NCBI GenBank assembly: GCA_003242645.1
Contig: QGVC01000254.1
Coordinates: 1-5,194, forward strand
Direction of reading: 5' to 3'
Source: Pseudomonadota bacterium
Lineage (GTDB): Bacteria > Pseudomonadota > Alphaproteobacteria > Rhizobiales > Hyphomicrobiaceae
DNA length: 5,194 nt
The position numbers were made by a program, and so were the translations under genes. The notes beneath the pieces are model-generated. The model was given only the letters and a program-made list of their open reading frames with translations. It did not search any database and was not told the DNA's origin. Positions 611 to 5,194 of the stretch are shown here, piece after piece (the first letter of the stretch is position 1; every line of letters starts with the position of its first letter).

Positions 611-1723
611 ATGGTGTCGGAAAGCGTAAAGCTGTTACTGACGGGCGACGTGATGACGGGGCGCGGGATCGATCAGATTCTGCCCCATCCCTCCGATCCC
701 GTGCTATACGAGGATTATGTCAAATCTGCCCTCGATTACGTGAAGCTGGCGGAGGACGCGCACGGCCCGATCCCGCGCCGGGTTCCTTATGAATACATCT
801 GGGGTGATGCACTGGATGAGCTCAAGGCGCGAAACCTCGATTTTCGCCTGATCAATCTGGAAACAGCGATAACGTCCGACGGCATTCCGGAGCCGAAAGG
901 CATTAATTACCGAATGCACCCGGCGAACATCGGGGTGCTGACAGCCGCTCGCATCGATGCTTGTGTTCTAGCAAATAATCACATGCTTGACTGGGGCGTC
1001 TCGGGTTTGAACGAAACGCTCGAAACGTTGGAGCGAGCAGGTATCGCTGCCGTCGGGGCCGGTCGAAACCAGCGAGACGCGACGGCGCCACTGGTGCGCC
1101 AGCTTGCCGACAACCGCCGCATTGTTGTCTTCGCCTACGGCTCAACAGATAGCGGTGTCCCATATTACTGGGCGGCGGGTGAGAATGCACCGGGCGTCAA
1201 TGTTCTTTCCGGCTTTTCAGATCGCACGGCGACGGACATTGCTGATCGTATTCAAGCGATAAAGCGGTCTGGCGATGTCGTGATCGTCTCGATCCATTGG
1301 GGCAGCAATTGGGGCTACGAAATTCCCGCCGCGCACCGCCGGTTTGCCCACACGCTCATCGAGACCGGCGTGGTTGACGTTATTCATGGCCATTCGTCGC
1401 ACCATGCCAGGGTTTGCGAGGTGTGGCGCGGGAAATTGATCATGTATGGATGCGGCGATCTCATCAACGATTACGAGGGGATCAGCGGGTACGAAGTTTA
1501 TCGCGATGACCTGGGCCTGATGTATTTCCCCGAGATCGACCCCACGAATGGTCAGCTGATAGCCCTCGAGATGGCTCCATTCCGAATCCGCAGATTTCGC
1601 CTTGAATGCGCGCCGGATCACGATGTGACCTGGCTTGCCGAGACGTTGTGGCGTGAGGGGCGGCAAGTCGGAACAGGAGTCGAGGTAACAAATACAGGTC
1701 ACCTGCGGCTCACCTGGAAATAG
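611..1723 (+). CDS. CapA-family (poly-gamma-glutamate synthesis type) metallophosphoesterase
   Basis: A complete 370-residue protein of the PGA_cap/CapA family, which has a calcineurin-like metallophosphoesterase fold. Visible metal-site motifs, in order, are TGDVMTGRG (Asp13), INLETAIT (Asn82, Glu84), LANNHMLDWG (Asn122, Asn123, His124), SIHWGSNWG (His229) and IHGHSSHH (His259, His261, His264). The full set suggests an active hydrolase. The Bacillus CapA/PgsA proteins are membrane-anchored and help export poly-gamma-glutamate. This protein has no N-terminal signal peptide or transmembrane helix: the GDVM motif begins at about residue 12, so it is probably cytoplasmic. No capB or capC partner is visible, so a capsule role is not supported; the substrate is unknown. 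The ATG at 611 is preceded only by a weak purine-rich stretch (GCGAGAAA), which fits translation following on from polX, whose stop is 19 bp upstream. It converges with pncA, leaving 34 bp with no convincing terminator. Confidence 0.9.
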   Translation: MVSESVKLLLTGDVMTGRGIDQILPHPSDPVLYEDYVKSALDYVKLAEDAHGPIPRRVPYEYIWGDALDELKARNLDFRLINLETAITSDGIPEPKGINYRMHPANIGVLTAARIDACVLANNHMLDWGVSGLNETLETLERAGIAAVGAGRNQRDATAPLVRQLADNRRIVVFAYGSTDSGVPYYWAAGENAPGVNVLSGFSDRTATDIADRIQAIKRSGDVVIVSIHWGSNWGYEIPAAHRRFAHTLIETGVVDVIHGHSSHHARVCEVWRGKLIMYGCGDLINDYEGISGYEVYRDDLGLMYFPEIDPTNGQLIALEMAPFRIRRFRLECAPDHDVTWLAETLWREGRQVGTGVEVTNTGHLRLTWK

Positions 1724-1757: not shown

Positions 1758-2411
1758 TCACTTTGCCTGCGCAGCCTTGATGTCTTCCGTCGTGACAACG
1801 TGCACCCCGAGCTCCGCGAAGCTCCGGCGGGTTTCCTGGAGAGATCCGTTCACGTCGATCGCTCGGCACGCGTCCTCGATGACGACGGCGGGGAATCCGA
1901 TGCGGGTAGCATCCTCGACGGAATAACGGACGCAGAAGTCGAACGCGAGGCCGGCGAAAAACGCACGCTCAAGGCCGCGCTCCCGCAAGTAGCCGGCGAG
2001 TCCGGTCGGCGTCTTGCGATCGTTTTCAAAGAACGCAGAATAAGAATCTATATGCTTGTGATAACCCTTTCTGAGGATTAGCTCAGCATGCGGGATATCC
2101 AGCTCATCGCGCAGCTGAGCTCCCGGCGTGCCCTGAACGCAATGATCCGGCCACAGAACCTGGGGACCGTAGAACACCTCGATTATTTCGTAGGGCTGCC
2201 GGCCAGGGTGAGACGACGCAAAGGACAAGTGTCCTGGCGGATGCCAGTCCTGCGTGATAATGACGTGCTGGAAATGCCGCGCAATCTCGTTGATCGGCCG
2301 AATGACCTCATCGCCACGCGGGACGGACAGCCGCCCGCCCGGACAGAAGTCGTATTGCACGTCGACAGCGATGAGAACGTCTCGTTCGGTGATCTGCAGG
2401 ATCTTGTTCAC
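1758..2411 (-). CDS. pncA: nicotinamidase (PncA, isochorismatase-like hydrolase)
   Basis: A complete 217-residue cysteine hydrolase that deamidates nicotinamide to nicotinate in the cytoplasm, the first step of the Preiss-Handler salvage route to NAD. The catalytic triad is visible as Asp17 (AVDVQYDFCPGG), Lys115 (LRKGYH) and Cys160 (FDFCVRYSV). Likely metal ligands are Asp55, His57 and His61 in TQDWHPPGH and His90 in WPDHCVQG. SYSAFFEN (residues 123-130) is also a PncA signature, and the length is normal for the family (about 210). The start is a GTG at 2411-2409 that overlaps the TGA stop of pncB as GTGA. A strong GGAGG (2422-2426) lies 10 nt upstream, inside the end of pncB, so translation is likely coupled. 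Adjacency to pncB, the next enzyme of the pathway, confirms nicotinamidase over other isochorismatase-like hydrolases. Confidence 0.95.
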   Translation of the reverse strand: MNKILQITERDVLIAVDVQYDFCPGGRLSVPRGDEVIRPINEIARHFQHVIITQDWHPPGHLSFASSHPGRQPYEIIEVFYGPQVLWPDHCVQGTPGAQLRDELDIPHAELILRKGYHKHIDSYSAFFENDRKTPTGLAGYLRERGLERAFFAGLAFDFCVRYSVEDATRIGFPAVVIEDACRAIDVNGSLQETRRSFAELGVHVVTTEDIKAAQAK

Positions 2412-3766
2412 TTGGCAGCTTCCTCCAGCTCGGCCAGGTGTTTGTCCACTTCCTCGGTCAACTGCAACAAAGCTGCTCCGATCTCGACCGGGTACTGAGC
2501 ATCCGGCTCGAGCCGCCGTAGCGGCTCGGGTAATTGTGCAAGATTTTTCGCCGCGTGTTTACGGACCTCATCTAGGCTTGGAGACGGACGAATTCGCCGT
2601 CCATTTTTCATCACCAGATGGATCAGTTGCTCGCCCGGCTGGGTGTCAGTCTCGACCGAAAGGACGTCACCGGACATGCGTCCATCGGCATCATAGTTGC
2701 GCCACACCTGTTTGCGCCCGGGCCAGGTCGCTTTGCCCGCTGAGCGCTTGCGACGACCGACGCCGGCGTATTCCTGGAGTTTGTAGGCACAATCGAGAGC
2801 CGGGACGTCGAACGAGGTCGTCAGGCTTGTGCCGATTCCATAGCCGTCAATCGGAGCGCCCGTCTCGCGGAAATGTAGAAGCTCTGCGTCGTCAATGCCG
2901 CCGCTGGCAAAAATGATCACGTCCTTAAGCCCGCCCTCATCGAGGATCTGCCGCACACTCTTTGCCAACGCAGCGAGATCGCCGCTGTCAAGGCGGACGC
3001 CGCGAATCTTTATCCCGCGCGCTGCTAGCTTCGGCGCCAGAGCAACGACTTTTCTCGCTGCCGCTTCGGTATCGTAAGTATCGATCAGGAGCACGAGTCC
3101 CTCAGGCCGGGATTCGGCAAACGCCTCGAAGGCGGAGACTTCATCGTCGAAAGCCTGAATGAAGGAATGCGCCATCGTGCCGAATATGGGAATGCCGTAA
3201 AGCTGGCCGGCGGACATCGTGGCGGTTCCAGCGTATCCGGCAATGTAGCTGGCCCGCGCTGCCATAATCCCCGCCTCAGCTCCATGGGCCCGCCGCAGGC
3301 CGAAGTCGACAAGCTGCTTGCCCGGCGCCAGCAGCACATGGCGGGCCGCCTTGGATGCGATCAGCGTCTGGAAATGGAGAATATTGATCAGCCGCGTTTC
3401 GACGAGCTGAGCCTCCGGCAGTGGTGCGACAACGCGCAAAATCGGCTCATTGGGAAAGAACACCGTGCCTTCCGGCATGGCATAGACATCGCCGGTGAAG
3501 CGGAATTTTCCCAGCTGGGATATAACGCTTTCGCTGAAACGTCCGCTCCGGCGCAGCCAGTCGAGGTCCTCCGGGGGAAAACTTAGGTTTTCCAGAAAAT
3601 CAAGTGCTTGCTCGAGGCCAGCCGCGACAAGAAAACCGCGAGAGCGGGGGAGCTTGCGCACAAAGAACTCGAAGACGGCCGTTTCCGTTTTCCCATGCTC
3701 CAGGTAGGCCTGGATCATGTTGAGCTGATAAAGGTCAGTCAGCAGAGGGCTTCTTGACAGGTCCAT
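2408..3766 (-). CDS. pncB: nicotinate phosphoribosyltransferase
   Basis: A 452-residue enzyme that condenses nicotinate with PRPP (with ATP hydrolysis) to nicotinate mononucleotide, the committed step of Preiss-Handler NAD salvage. Motifs in order: SPLLTDLYQLNMIQAYLEHG (residues 6-25, typical N-terminus), FEFFVRKLP (32-40), FGLRRAHGAEAG (155-166), FGTMAHSFI (195-203; its His200 corresponds to the histidine phosphorylated during catalysis), LIDTYDT (227-233), VRLDSGDLAAL (257-267) and IFASGGID (285-292). I chose the ATG at 3766 because GGGAG (3771-3775) lies 4 nt upstream and the homologous N-terminus begins there. A GTG at 3796 would add ten unconserved residues and coincides with the predicted transcription start. 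It is first in an operon with pncA, which it overlaps by 4 bp. The C-terminus is charged and helical (LTEEVDKHLAELEEAAK). It runs in the same direction as hsp20, with a 158-bp gap between them. Confidence 0.95.
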   Translation of the reverse strand: MDLSRSPLLTDLYQLNMIQAYLEHGKTETAVFEFFVRKLPRSRGFLVAAGLEQALDFLENLSFPPEDLDWLRRSGRFSESVISQLGKFRFTGDVYAMPEGTVFFPNEPILRVVAPLPEAQLVETRLINILHFQTLIASKAARHVLLAPGKQLVDFGLRRAHGAEAGIMAARASYIAGYAGTATMSAGQLYGIPIFGTMAHSFIQAFDDEVSAFEAFAESRPEGLVLLIDTYDTEAAARKVVALAPKLAARGIKIRGVRLDSGDLAALAKSVRQILDEGGLKDVIIFASGGIDDAELLHFRETGAPIDGYGIGTSLTTSFDVPALDCAYKLQEYAGVGRRKRSAGKATWPGRKQVWRNYDADGRMSGDVLSVETDTQPGEQLIHLVMKNGRRIRPSPSLDEVRKHAAKNLAQLPEPLRRLEPDAQYPVEIGAALLQLTEEVDKHLAELEEAAK

Positions 3767-3882: not shown

Positions 3883-3904
3883 CGGGGGGATCGCCGTCCC
3901 CCCG
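3883..3904 (-). terminator. GC-rich hairpin downstream of hsp20 (possible terminator)
   Basis: Arms CGGGGGGA and TCCCCCCG are perfectly complementary (8 bp) around a 6-nt loop, starting 20 bp past the hsp20 stop. On the minus strand the stem is followed by TACTTGAG with no U-tract, so it is not a textbook intrinsic terminator. It may still end the transcript, or protect its 3' end and partly insulate the pncB operon from hsp20 transcription. There is no gene on the plus strand that it could serve. Confidence 0.45.
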
Positions 3905-3924: not shown

Positions 3925-4419
3925 TCAGGCCTTCTTGATCTCGATCTTCTTCTCGGCCTTTACGGCCTCGGGTTTCTTTGGGGCGGTGATCTTCAGCACG
4001 CCCTTGTCAAATTTTGCCTCGATCTTGTCCGCATCGATGGTGTCCGGGAGCGAGAGGGAGCGCTCGAATTTTCCATAGGAACGTTCGGCCAGATAGTAAT
4101 TCTCCTCTTTCTCTTCGCGCTCGCTCTTCTTTTCGCCCTTGATGGTCAGCGTCCCGTTGGCCATCGTCACGGAGATGTCCTTCTCGTCGACGCCCGGCAG
4201 GTCGACCTCGATCATGAACTTCTTATCGTCCTCGTGGACGTCGACCTCCGGCAACATTACTGGACGCCCGAAACGGCGAGAAATCAGGCTCGGCCAGCGA
4301 GGCCAGCCATGCTCAAGCCGCTCGAACATCCTGTCCATCTCCTCGCGCATGGCGGCGAAGATGTCGCTCGGACGGGTCACTTCACCCAACGTTGGCTTGG
4401 TGATCTCAGTTTTGGGCAT
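3925..4419 (-). CDS. hsp20: Hsp20/alpha-crystallin small heat-shock protein
   Basis: A complete 164-residue ATP-independent holdase that binds unfolding proteins in the cytoplasm as large oligomers. Residues 1-50 form the variable N-terminal arm (FAAMREEMDRMFERL, then a Trp/Pro-rich stretch). The alpha-crystallin domain spans about 57-148: LPEVDVHEDDKKFMIEVDLPGV, then NGTLTIKGEK, then FERSLSLPDTIDADKIEAKF, ending in the hallmark GVLKITAPK (140-148). The C-terminal tail carries an IEI (159-161), matching the I-x-I/V motif that docks neighbouring subunits. The ATG at 4419 has GGAG (4427-4430) 7 nt upstream. The gene is divergent from prs, and an FNR/FixK-type site lies 171 bp upstream of its start. 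No CIRCE element or clear sigma32 promoter is seen. This is the class common in rhizobia and other proteobacteria, of normal length. Confidence 0.95.
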   Translation of the reverse strand: MPKTEITKPTLGEVTRPSDIFAAMREEMDRMFERLEHGWPRWPSLISRRFGRPVMLPEVDVHEDDKKFMIEVDLPGVDEKDISVTMANGTLTIKGEKKSEREEKEENYYLAERSYGKFERSLSLPDTIDADKIEAKFDKGVLKITAPKKPEAVKAEKKIEIKKA

Positions 4420-4462
4420 GGTTAAGCTCCATCATCGGTAGGACAGTTCTGAAACGCAGATG

Positions 4463-4498
4463 GGCAAGGGCGGTTCGCCGAGCTCCCCAGCCCTTACC
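4463..4498 (-). other. stem-loop in the predicted hsp20 mRNA leader
   Basis: In the minus-strand transcript, GGUAAGGGC (4498-4490) can pair with GCCCUUGCC (4471-4463), eight Watson-Crick pairs and one G-U, around an 18-nt loop. The loop includes AGCUC, complementary to the GAGCU of the hsp20 ribosome binding site. It could fold as a leader regulatory element, but the conserved short segment of rhizobial ROSE thermometers is not obvious here. It may simply be a stable leader hairpin. Confidence 0.25.
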
Positions 4499-4561
4499 AG
4501 CTTGGCCACGCGCAGGTCGCCCGACCTTGGGCTTCAGCTTGAGCCAAACTGTTCATGTGTA

Positions 4562-4567
4562 AGTCTG
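4562..4567 (-). promoter_or_regulatory. candidate -10 element for hsp20
   Basis: CAGACT on the minus strand matches TATAAT at only three positions, but these include the important A2 and T6. It is positioned exactly as expected for a class II activator bound at 4590-4603. The implied transcript would start near 4555 and have a leader of about 135 nt before the ATG at 4419. No -35 hexamer is needed in this arrangement. The call rests on spacing, not on a strong hexamer. Confidence 0.35.
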
Positions 4568-4589
4568 AAAGGCTGCAACCCTAGCTGCC

Positions 4590-4603
4590 TTGATGGGAAT
4601 CAA
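4590..4603. promoter_or_regulatory. perfect FNR/Anr/FixK-type binding site
   Basis: The sequence TTGAT-GGGA-ATCAA matches the FNR/Anr consensus TTGAT-N4-ATCAA at all ten specified positions, and also the rhizobial FixK form TTGA-N6-TCAA. With one flanking base pair it forms a 16-bp inverted repeat (4589-4604). Read toward hsp20, the site is followed after exactly 22 bp by CAGACT (4567-4562). This places the box at -41.5 relative to a start near 4555, the geometry of class II FNR/CRP activation. Read toward prs, the same distance gives ACCTGG, a poor -10. Activation of hsp20 under low oxygen is therefore the better reading. The regulator itself is not in the window. Confidence 0.65.
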
Positions 4604-4736
4604 GCTGAACTTCACCGGCGCTAAGACCTGGAGCGGCAGTGTCCCAGGATCGCACTGGAGGCGGCAAGGCGATGGTCGGAATATTGAGTTGAGCGTTTGA
4701 AATATAACGTGCTGCCGAAGAGGGAGTTTCGCCTCA

Positions 4737-5194
4737 ATGCAATTATTTGCCCTCAGCGAAAGCCGGCCGTTCGCGGAGCGAGTTGCGACGGAGCTGGGCC
4801 TCGGCCTGTCAGAGATCGAGGAGCGTGTGTTTCCGGACGGTGAGTTTCAAAATCGGCCCCTCGTCAGTCTGCGAGGCCGCGATGTTTACGTTATCCAGAG
4901 CCTCCATGCAGGCCCGGATGTCAGCCTCTCCGACAAGCTTGTCCGCCTTCTCGTACTCCTGGCCACCCTGAGGGATAACGGCGCGCAGCGCGTTACGGCG
5001 GTCATCCCCTATCTCGCCTTCGCCAGACAGGACCGACAGGTGCACCCTCGCGATCCGCTCGCCTTGCGAACCTTGGCCCTGCTTCTCGAAGCTGCAGGCG
5101 CAGATGCGGTGGTCACCGTCGACGTGCATAACATTGCAGCCTTTCAGAATGCCTTCCGTTGTCAGGCGATCAATCTGGAAGCGGCGCCTGATCT
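4737..5194 (+). CDS. prs: ribose-phosphate pyrophosphokinase (PRPP synthetase), N-terminal part, 3' truncated
   Basis: The frame opens at the ATG at 4737 and has no stop up to the window end: 152 codons of an enzyme usually near 300 residues. It transfers pyrophosphate from ATP to ribose-5-phosphate, making PRPP. Visible motifs are RVFPDGEFQNR (residues 30-40), RDVYVIQSL (48-56), AVIPYLAFARQDRQ (88-101, the ATP-contacting RQDR segment), DPLALRTLALLLEAAGAD (106-123) and VVTVDVHN (125-132, replacing the usual TVDLHA). The text after it (IAAFQNAF...AINLEA) is more like short archaeal-type enzymes than the housekeeping class I enzyme, so this is probably a second, accessory PRPP synthetase. This is inference from half a protein; the C-terminal PRPP-binding loop is outside. 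AGGGAG (4721-4726) lies 10 nt upstream of the start. Divergent from hsp20 and near pncB, which consumes PRPP. Confidence 0.9.
   Translation, partial: MQLFALSESRPFAERVATELGLGLSEIEERVFPDGEFQNRPLVSLRGRDVYVIQSLHAGPDVSLSDKLVRLLVLLATLRDNGAQRVTAVIPYLAFARQDRQVHPRDPLALRTLALLLEAAGADAVVTVDVHNIAAFQNAFRCQAINLEAAPD

Follow-up and report, generated by a model that had tools for sequence, protein, structure and literature searches.

We conclude that a small heat-shock gene (hsp20) in a 5,194-nt stretch of Hyphomicrobiaceae DNA (the window) is very probably activated at low oxygen by a FixK/FnrN-type regulator bound in the class II position. This is the best explanation of the data, and we put its probability at roughly 0.86. 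It builds on the site itself, its conservation, its position relative to a -10 signal across relatives and the fitting regulators in the nearest genome, all of which were observed directly. The site, TTGATGGGAATCAA, is an exact match to TTGAT-N4-ATCAA with 10/10 core bases and 0 mismatches, and lies in the 317-bp intergenic gap between hsp20 (start 4419, minus strand) and the divergent prs (start 4737, plus strand), so that all ten specified bases are indeed found in intergenic DNA, as the sequence-only reading had claimed. An outer C and G extend the arms to 6 bp (CTTGAT-N4-ATCAAG). FNR/FixK-type operators follow TTGA-N6-TCAA, preferably TTGAT-N4-ATCAA, and the window site has the preferred form. 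The exact 14-mer match is unique within the window; at up to 2 mismatches the window holds 3 sites where a mean of 1.58 is expected, a count too coarse to say how likely the perfect site is by chance. The element at 4590-4603 looks like a genuine, conserved site for FNR/FixK-family low-oxygen regulators. The features of the window are compiled in Table 1.

Table 1 Features of the window around the hsp20-prs gap
Feature	Position	Strand	Basis
CapA/PGA_cap-family protein	611..1723	+	Pfam PGA_cap 8.5e-78
Isochorismatase-family protein, probable nicotinamidase (pncA-like; role inferred)	1758..2411	-	Pfam Isochorismatase 2.8e-22
Nicotinate phosphoribosyltransferase (pncB-like), 452 aa from ATG 3766	2408..3766	-	Pfam NAPRTase_N 2.2e-35
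GC-rich hairpin after hsp20 (six G, eight-base loop, six C; without T run)	3884..3903	-	Sequence
hsp20, small heat-shock protein, 164 aa	3925..4419	-	Pfam HSP20 1.3e-27
Predicted hsp20 leader, about 135 nt	4420..4554	-	Conserved with L001
Putative start of transcription (class II; box centre at -41.5)	4555	-	Inferred from spacing
-10-like hexamer CAGACT	4562..4567	-	22 bp past the box towards hsp20; 3/6 to TATAAT
FNR/FixK-type palindrome TTGATGGGAATCAA	4590..4603	.	Exact match, kept in L001; TTGA-N6-TCAA common in the family
prs-like ribose-phosphate pyrophosphokinase (N-terminal portion; the gene runs past the end of the window)	4737..5194	+	Pfam Pribosyltran_N 8.6e-32

The nearest relative is Hyphomicrobiaceae RSA4 (locus L001), whose NAPRTase is 88% identical to that of the window. 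Its hsp20 carries TTGATCCCTATCAA 197 bp upstream of the ATG; the arms of the box are kept and the centre differs (GGGA vs AGGG, L001 and window compared in the same orientation). Loss of the box in close relatives, which the sequence-only reading had named as refuting, was therefore not seen in L001. Homology between the two sequences begins at the box and extends to hsp20, not towards prs, with identity at 130/169 aligned positions from box to ATG vs 58/152 on the far side. There, L001 has a different ORF, oriented towards hsp20 and PP2C-like by eye, and prs found no match at this locus or, at E<=1e-30, in its source genome G001. As a different ORF without prs match occupies the other side, the box in this genome belongs to hsp20. 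Within hsp20 itself, the window and L001 are identical at 25/42 four-fold sites, 104/165 third positions and 411/495 positions of the whole gene. The box-to-ATG stretch (window 4420-4589) is thus kept better than the four-fold sites or third positions of hsp20 and less well than the whole gene; since its conservation exceeds that of the four-fold sites, the leader may carry further signals. Among the listed protein relatives of the window with a taxon name, 6/7 belong to Hyphomicrobiaceae and 1/7 to Xanthobacteraceae.

The sequence-only reading had proposed a genome scan for FNR/FixK sites, which we carried out as a pattern search on related genomes in place of the window's own. The perfect core was enriched in all seven relatives counted (genome sizes 4-6 Mb), with 12 sites in G103, 9 in G100, 5 in G031, 11 in G028, 4 in G026, 11 in G069 and 22 in G004, while the reversed pattern gave 0 in each of the same genomes. 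From these 4-22 sites per 4-6 Mb genome and the zero counts of the reversed pattern, our own arithmetic puts the chance of a perfect core in a given 317-bp gap far below 1%. In G001 (3.4 Mb, the nearest relative and the source of L001), TTGAY-N4-RTCAA occurred at 17 distinct sites vs 2 for the reversed pattern; the core is perfect in three of the 17, the hsp20 site included. Several of the 15 G001 sites examined sit within ORFs (e.g. L082, L085 and L094), and the motif by itself is therefore insufficient.

In the family of G001 (103 genomes), a search for hsp20 relatives at E<=1e-30 gave 33 matches in 29 genomes; we examined 450 bp upstream of each of the 30 that had loci (L096-L125, 29 genomes). 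TTGA-N6-TCAA occurred within this distance in 19/30 loci and was absent from 11/30. Once the window and the P. indica locus L079 were added, 21/32 upstream regions had the box, compared to 0/32 for the reversed pattern, 0/32 for the first 450 bp of the hsp20 gene and a mean of 0.15 (maximum 2) in 200 shuffles of the 32 regions. The published FixK2 consensus, TTG[AC]-N6-[TG]CAA (PMC9104804), is looser and was found at 23/30 family loci, adding L099, L100, L107 and L110, in a bare count without control; neither form was present upstream of the remaining 7/30 (L101, L109, L111, L113, L121, L122 and L124). One locus, L112, has a 14-mer identical to that of the window, and the P. indica hsp20 is preceded by two perfect boxes. 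The distance from box to ATG is 184 bp in the window and 73-152 bp in relatives with a box, except for L096 (197 bp) and L114 (210 bp), the nearest box being taken in each case. An order-wide search returned hsp20 relatives in 6/397 genomes at E<=1e-45, five of which were already known, leaving L168 as the sole addition.

In class II FNR promoters the box is centred at about -41.5 and lies 22 bp before the -10 element, and a -10-like hexamer at exactly this distance towards hsp20 had been pointed out from the sequence. In the window alone, this hexamer is weak single-site evidence: CAGACT agrees with TATAAT at 3/6 positions, and 36/312 minus-strand hexamers of the gap match as well or better. 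A sigma-70 promoter scan of 4200-5000 found none. L001 has the same hexamer at spacer 23. The class II spacing did stand up in the relatives as a group. We aligned 25 loci (23 family loci, L079 and the window) by one box each, located 55-215 bp upstream, and the mean TATAAT match peaked at spacer 22 with 2.24 of 6. The neighbouring spacers gave 2.04 and 1.72, spacer 19 gave 2.00, and the rest of the range 8-41 gave 0.80-1.80. The value at spacer 22 was reached there by 0/5000 within-sequence shuffles and, when the maximum over spacers 8-41 was taken, by 0/1000, shuffles that do not keep position-dependent composition.

These findings suggest how hsp20 would be switched on. An active FixK dimer, or a 4Fe-4S FnrN/FnrL dimer, would bind the hsp20 box at -41.5 once oxygen falls and would touch RNA polymerase as in class II promoters. 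The hsp20 transcript would then begin about 135 nt before the ATG and might extend through into pncB and pncA. What we infer from the observations above is that the regulator binds at hsp20 and activates it in response to oxygen, together with the start site and the read-through.

Candidate regulators are encoded in G001. L126 is FixK-like, is devoid of an N-terminal Cys cluster and scores 170.5 bits with the FixK model against an NCBIfam cut-off of 300; L130 is FnrL-like, with Cys at 6, 9, 17 and 105/106, and scores 216.2 bits with the FnrL model, again against a cut-off of 300. The two share the helix residues ETVSR. Proteins that look alike by eye and also carry ETVSR are present in G100, G031 and G103, and one G031 protein has an FnrL-type Cys pattern; proteins with an E-x-x-S-R recognition helix were accordingly observed in four genomes of relatives (G001, G103, G100 and G031). 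We also read the surroundings of 15/17 G001 sites, the other two being without a locus, and scored 8 adjoining ORFs with NCBIfam. Boxes precede ccoN, hemA and hemN, each scoring above its NCBIfam cut-off; the other adjoining ORFs were Usp-like, CBS-domain, SOD and peroxiredoxin-like, all below cut-off, and one without match. The ccoN box (L086) lies one small ORF downstream of the fixK-like gene. PMC2908626 tabulates hemA, ccoN, uspA and hemN as FnrL targets in R. sphaeroides, and hsp20 fits this target set. Around position 1501 of L095, a further G001 box precedes an ORF that by eye resembles the P. indica L079 ORF 9967-11025, which lies between prs and hsp20. Taken together, the boxes in 19/30 relatives, the class II spacing of the group, the regulators in G001 and the rhizobial precedents described below support a predicted oxygen control of hsp20 of the FNR/FixK type, as first proposed from the sequence.

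Could hsp20 instead be chiefly controlled by heat, through its long leader acting as an RNA thermometer or through RpoH, with the box being minor or vestigial? The conservation of the stretch between box and ATG, above that of the four-fold sites though below that of the whole gene, is what such control might leave behind. Neither CIRCE (up to 3 mismatches) nor the alpha-type RpoH pattern CTTG-N15-19-CYTATNT occurs in the window, and Rfam recognised no leader there, ROSE included; the single Rfam match, RRE (E 0.039, 17.8 bits vs a cut-off of 104), was taken as noise. The fold of the leader is unremarkable (z -0.68), and an RNA-thermometer reading of it is thus unsupported. The earlier statement that no classical heat-shock sites lie near hsp20 agrees with these scans, and, with the box recurring across relatives, we regard chiefly heat-driven control as improbable. 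An element of an undescribed type in the conserved hsp20 leader may nevertheless exist and would be compatible with the negative scans.

A different objection concerns the signal and not the site. The DNA sequences bound by FNR, FixK and DNR are very much alike (PMC2908626), for which reason the box cannot distinguish between them, and the operator might be read by a sensor of the NnrR/DNR type that responds to nitric oxide or denitrification and not by FixK/Fnr. Against this speak the G001 boxes before ccoN, hemA and hemN, the listing of Hsp20 under FixK in Table 1 of PMC2908626, and the best scores of L126 and L130 with the FixK and FnrL models (the other G001 Crp/Fnr proteins are not all classified). 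A nitric oxide sensor is, on balance, very unlikely to be the main reader. That the box is a chance palindrome without function would sit well with the occurrence of the motif within ORFs of G001, but the conservation in L001, the 19/30 relatives, the genome counts of 4-22 vs 0 and the spacer-22 peak, taken together, make this next to negligible. The preferred reading hence stays that a FixK/FnrN-type regulator activates hsp20 from a class II site when oxygen is low.

Whether the box also serves prs is less clear. A prs of this type was found in 8/103 family genomes at E<=1e-30, from which we take the window copy to be probably an accessory one. One dimer at the box might activate hsp20 in class II fashion and prs in class I fashion or otherwise, co-inducing a chaperone and PRPP supply, a scenario that is possible and to which we give somewhat less than even odds. 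In its favour, prs and hsp20 also diverge in G103, where a box in the gap lies 183 bp from the ATG of prs and 141 bp from that of hsp20, and TTGA-N6-TCAA lies within 400 bp upstream in 4/8 family prs loci (L156, L161, L162 and L163), or in 6/8 with the looser consensus, both as bare counts without control. Moreover, the B. diazoefficiens ribose-phosphate pyrophosphokinase gene bll3116 is reported as microoxia-induced and its predicted operon-mates bll3117 and bll3115 as FixK2-dependent. On the other side, the prs-directed hexamer at spacer 22 matches at 0/6 positions in the window and in G103, the homology with L001 ends at the box on the prs side, and a prs of this kind is absent from G001 at E<=1e-30. 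In a three-way intergenic alignment with G103, the box was not aligned, the G103 gap (L097/L156) being poorly alignable to the window, and this alignment was set aside. The suggestion of the sequence-only reading that perhaps prs responds as well is therefore backed by boxes at some prs relatives and not by a prs-side -10 at spacer 22 or by conservation of the prs side with L001; the check that it had proposed, for a box at hsp20/prs pairs in relatives, finds one in G103, whereas L001 keeps the box without prs. Given the G103 pair and the boxes at prs relatives, prs may be in the same regulon, yet control of prs from the box is less supported than control of hsp20, and the evidence on the window box favours hsp20.

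On its other side, pncB and pncA come after hsp20, and the pncA-like gene overlaps the end of the pncB-like gene. The 158-bp gap between hsp20 and pncB holds the G6/C6 hairpin, which may shield the end of the hsp20 mRNA or determine the ratio of hsp20 to pncB. A similar G6/C6 hairpin also follows hsp20 in L001. Across 80 NAPRTase loci, some of them short, a CapA relative was nearby in 10, a prs relative in 12 and an hsp20 relative in 4. NAPRTase is present in 4/103 genomes of the G001 family, so that a pncB neighbour is rare there, which counts against a fixed module. P. indica L079 (3113-11800) unites relatives of CapA, NAPRTase, pncA, prs and hsp20 in one neighbourhood. The same P. indica neighbourhood (within 15 kb) also holds what by eye are GroEL and an Anr-like Crp/Fnr protein rich in Cys. 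For 78 of the 80 NAPRTase loci (2 were dropped for less than 300 bp of upstream DNA), we asked how often TTGA-N6-TCAA lies within 450 bp before the operon; it did in 8/41 operons that are not pncA-first vs 0/37 that are, with 0/78 for the reversed pattern. A box directly before NAPRTase operons is thus real in some and was rejected as a general rule.

From this neighbourhood a wider and more speculative picture can be drawn, which we hold to be unlikely as a whole. The box would drive an hsp20-pncB-pncA transcript and help to control the accessory prs diverging from it; a single low-oxygen switch would thereby couple a chaperone to PRPP/NAD salvage, with CapA close by. Such a set could be a proteobacterial counterpart of the DosR dormancy set, in which an unrelated regulator governs the same gene functions, and might have spread between lineages as a low-oxygen neighbourhood, also seen in P. 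indica with GroEL and the Anr-like regulator. If NAD and PRPP genes are truly co-controlled, this would suggest that unrelated bacteria share a gene kit for outlasting oxygen lack.

Oxygen-controlled hsp20 with an FNR/FixK box is already known in rhizobia, and the window is a well-supported further case, which brings uncultured Hyphomicrobiaceae-like bacteria alongside the rhizobia as carriers of small heat-shock genes under oxygen control; the 25 aligned class II promoters form a testable set. Literature searches found nothing joining Hyphomicrobiaceae, FixK and heat shock, or FixK, hsp20, phosphoribosyl and regulon, and the available text of PMC4999443 makes no mention of hsp, prs, heat shock, pncB, usp or Hyphomicrobi. 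The closest precedent is the small heat-shock gene rlv_1399 of R. leguminosarum UPM791, for which PMC11784457 describes an FnrN-dependent anaerobox TTGA-N6-TCAA with its centre at -87.5 relative to the translation start, an induction of about 50-fold under microaerobic conditions and only basal expression in the fnrN double mutant. Both genes are thus preceded by TTGA-N6-TCAA, with control measured there and predicted here; rlv_1399 has a second, imperfect box, whereas the window hsp20 has one. In B. diazoefficiens, the hsp20 gene hspC2 (blr4637) is given as FixK2-dependent with a box listed at -86, and bll3117-bll3116-bll3115 as a predicted operon with a box listed at -74, of which bll3117 is FixK2-dependent and bll3116 microoxia-induced (PMC9104804, PMC6515984). 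By their gene numbers these hsp20 and pyrophosphokinase genes occupy separate loci, whereas those of the window diverge around one box. A reconstruction of the alphaproteobacterial FixK regulon likewise predicts Hsp20 as a member from conserved boxes (PMC2908626); it covers 87 other species, and "nicotinate" and "pyrophosphokinase" are absent from its text as available.

More distant systems share parts of the gene set. B. cenocepacia is a betaproteobacterium. Its low-oxygen-activated lxa locus comprises a heat-shock protein and six Usp proteins, for which an Anr-like regulator was proposed (PMC6127331); the available text lacks "phosphoribosyl", "nicotinate" and "pyrophosphokinase", unlike the gene set of the window. 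In B. cenocepacia H111, the anoxic-survival Tn-seq table has a row for nicotinate phosphoribosyltransferase with values of -4.48 and -2.37 (PMC9104464). The linkage of a box-bearing hsp20 to NAD-salvage, Prs and CapA genes is mildly new and resembles the mycobacterial DosR set. DosR is a two-component regulator with an operator unrelated to the FNR/FixK box, and Rv0574c of M. tuberculosis is presumably of the CapA type. The DosR regulon, as listed in PMC11203133, includes HspX, PncB2 (Rv0573c) and Rv0574c. The window and the DosR set thus both combine a small heat-shock protein with a nicotinate phosphoribosyltransferase, those of DosR under a hypoxia regulator, a likeness of functions alone.
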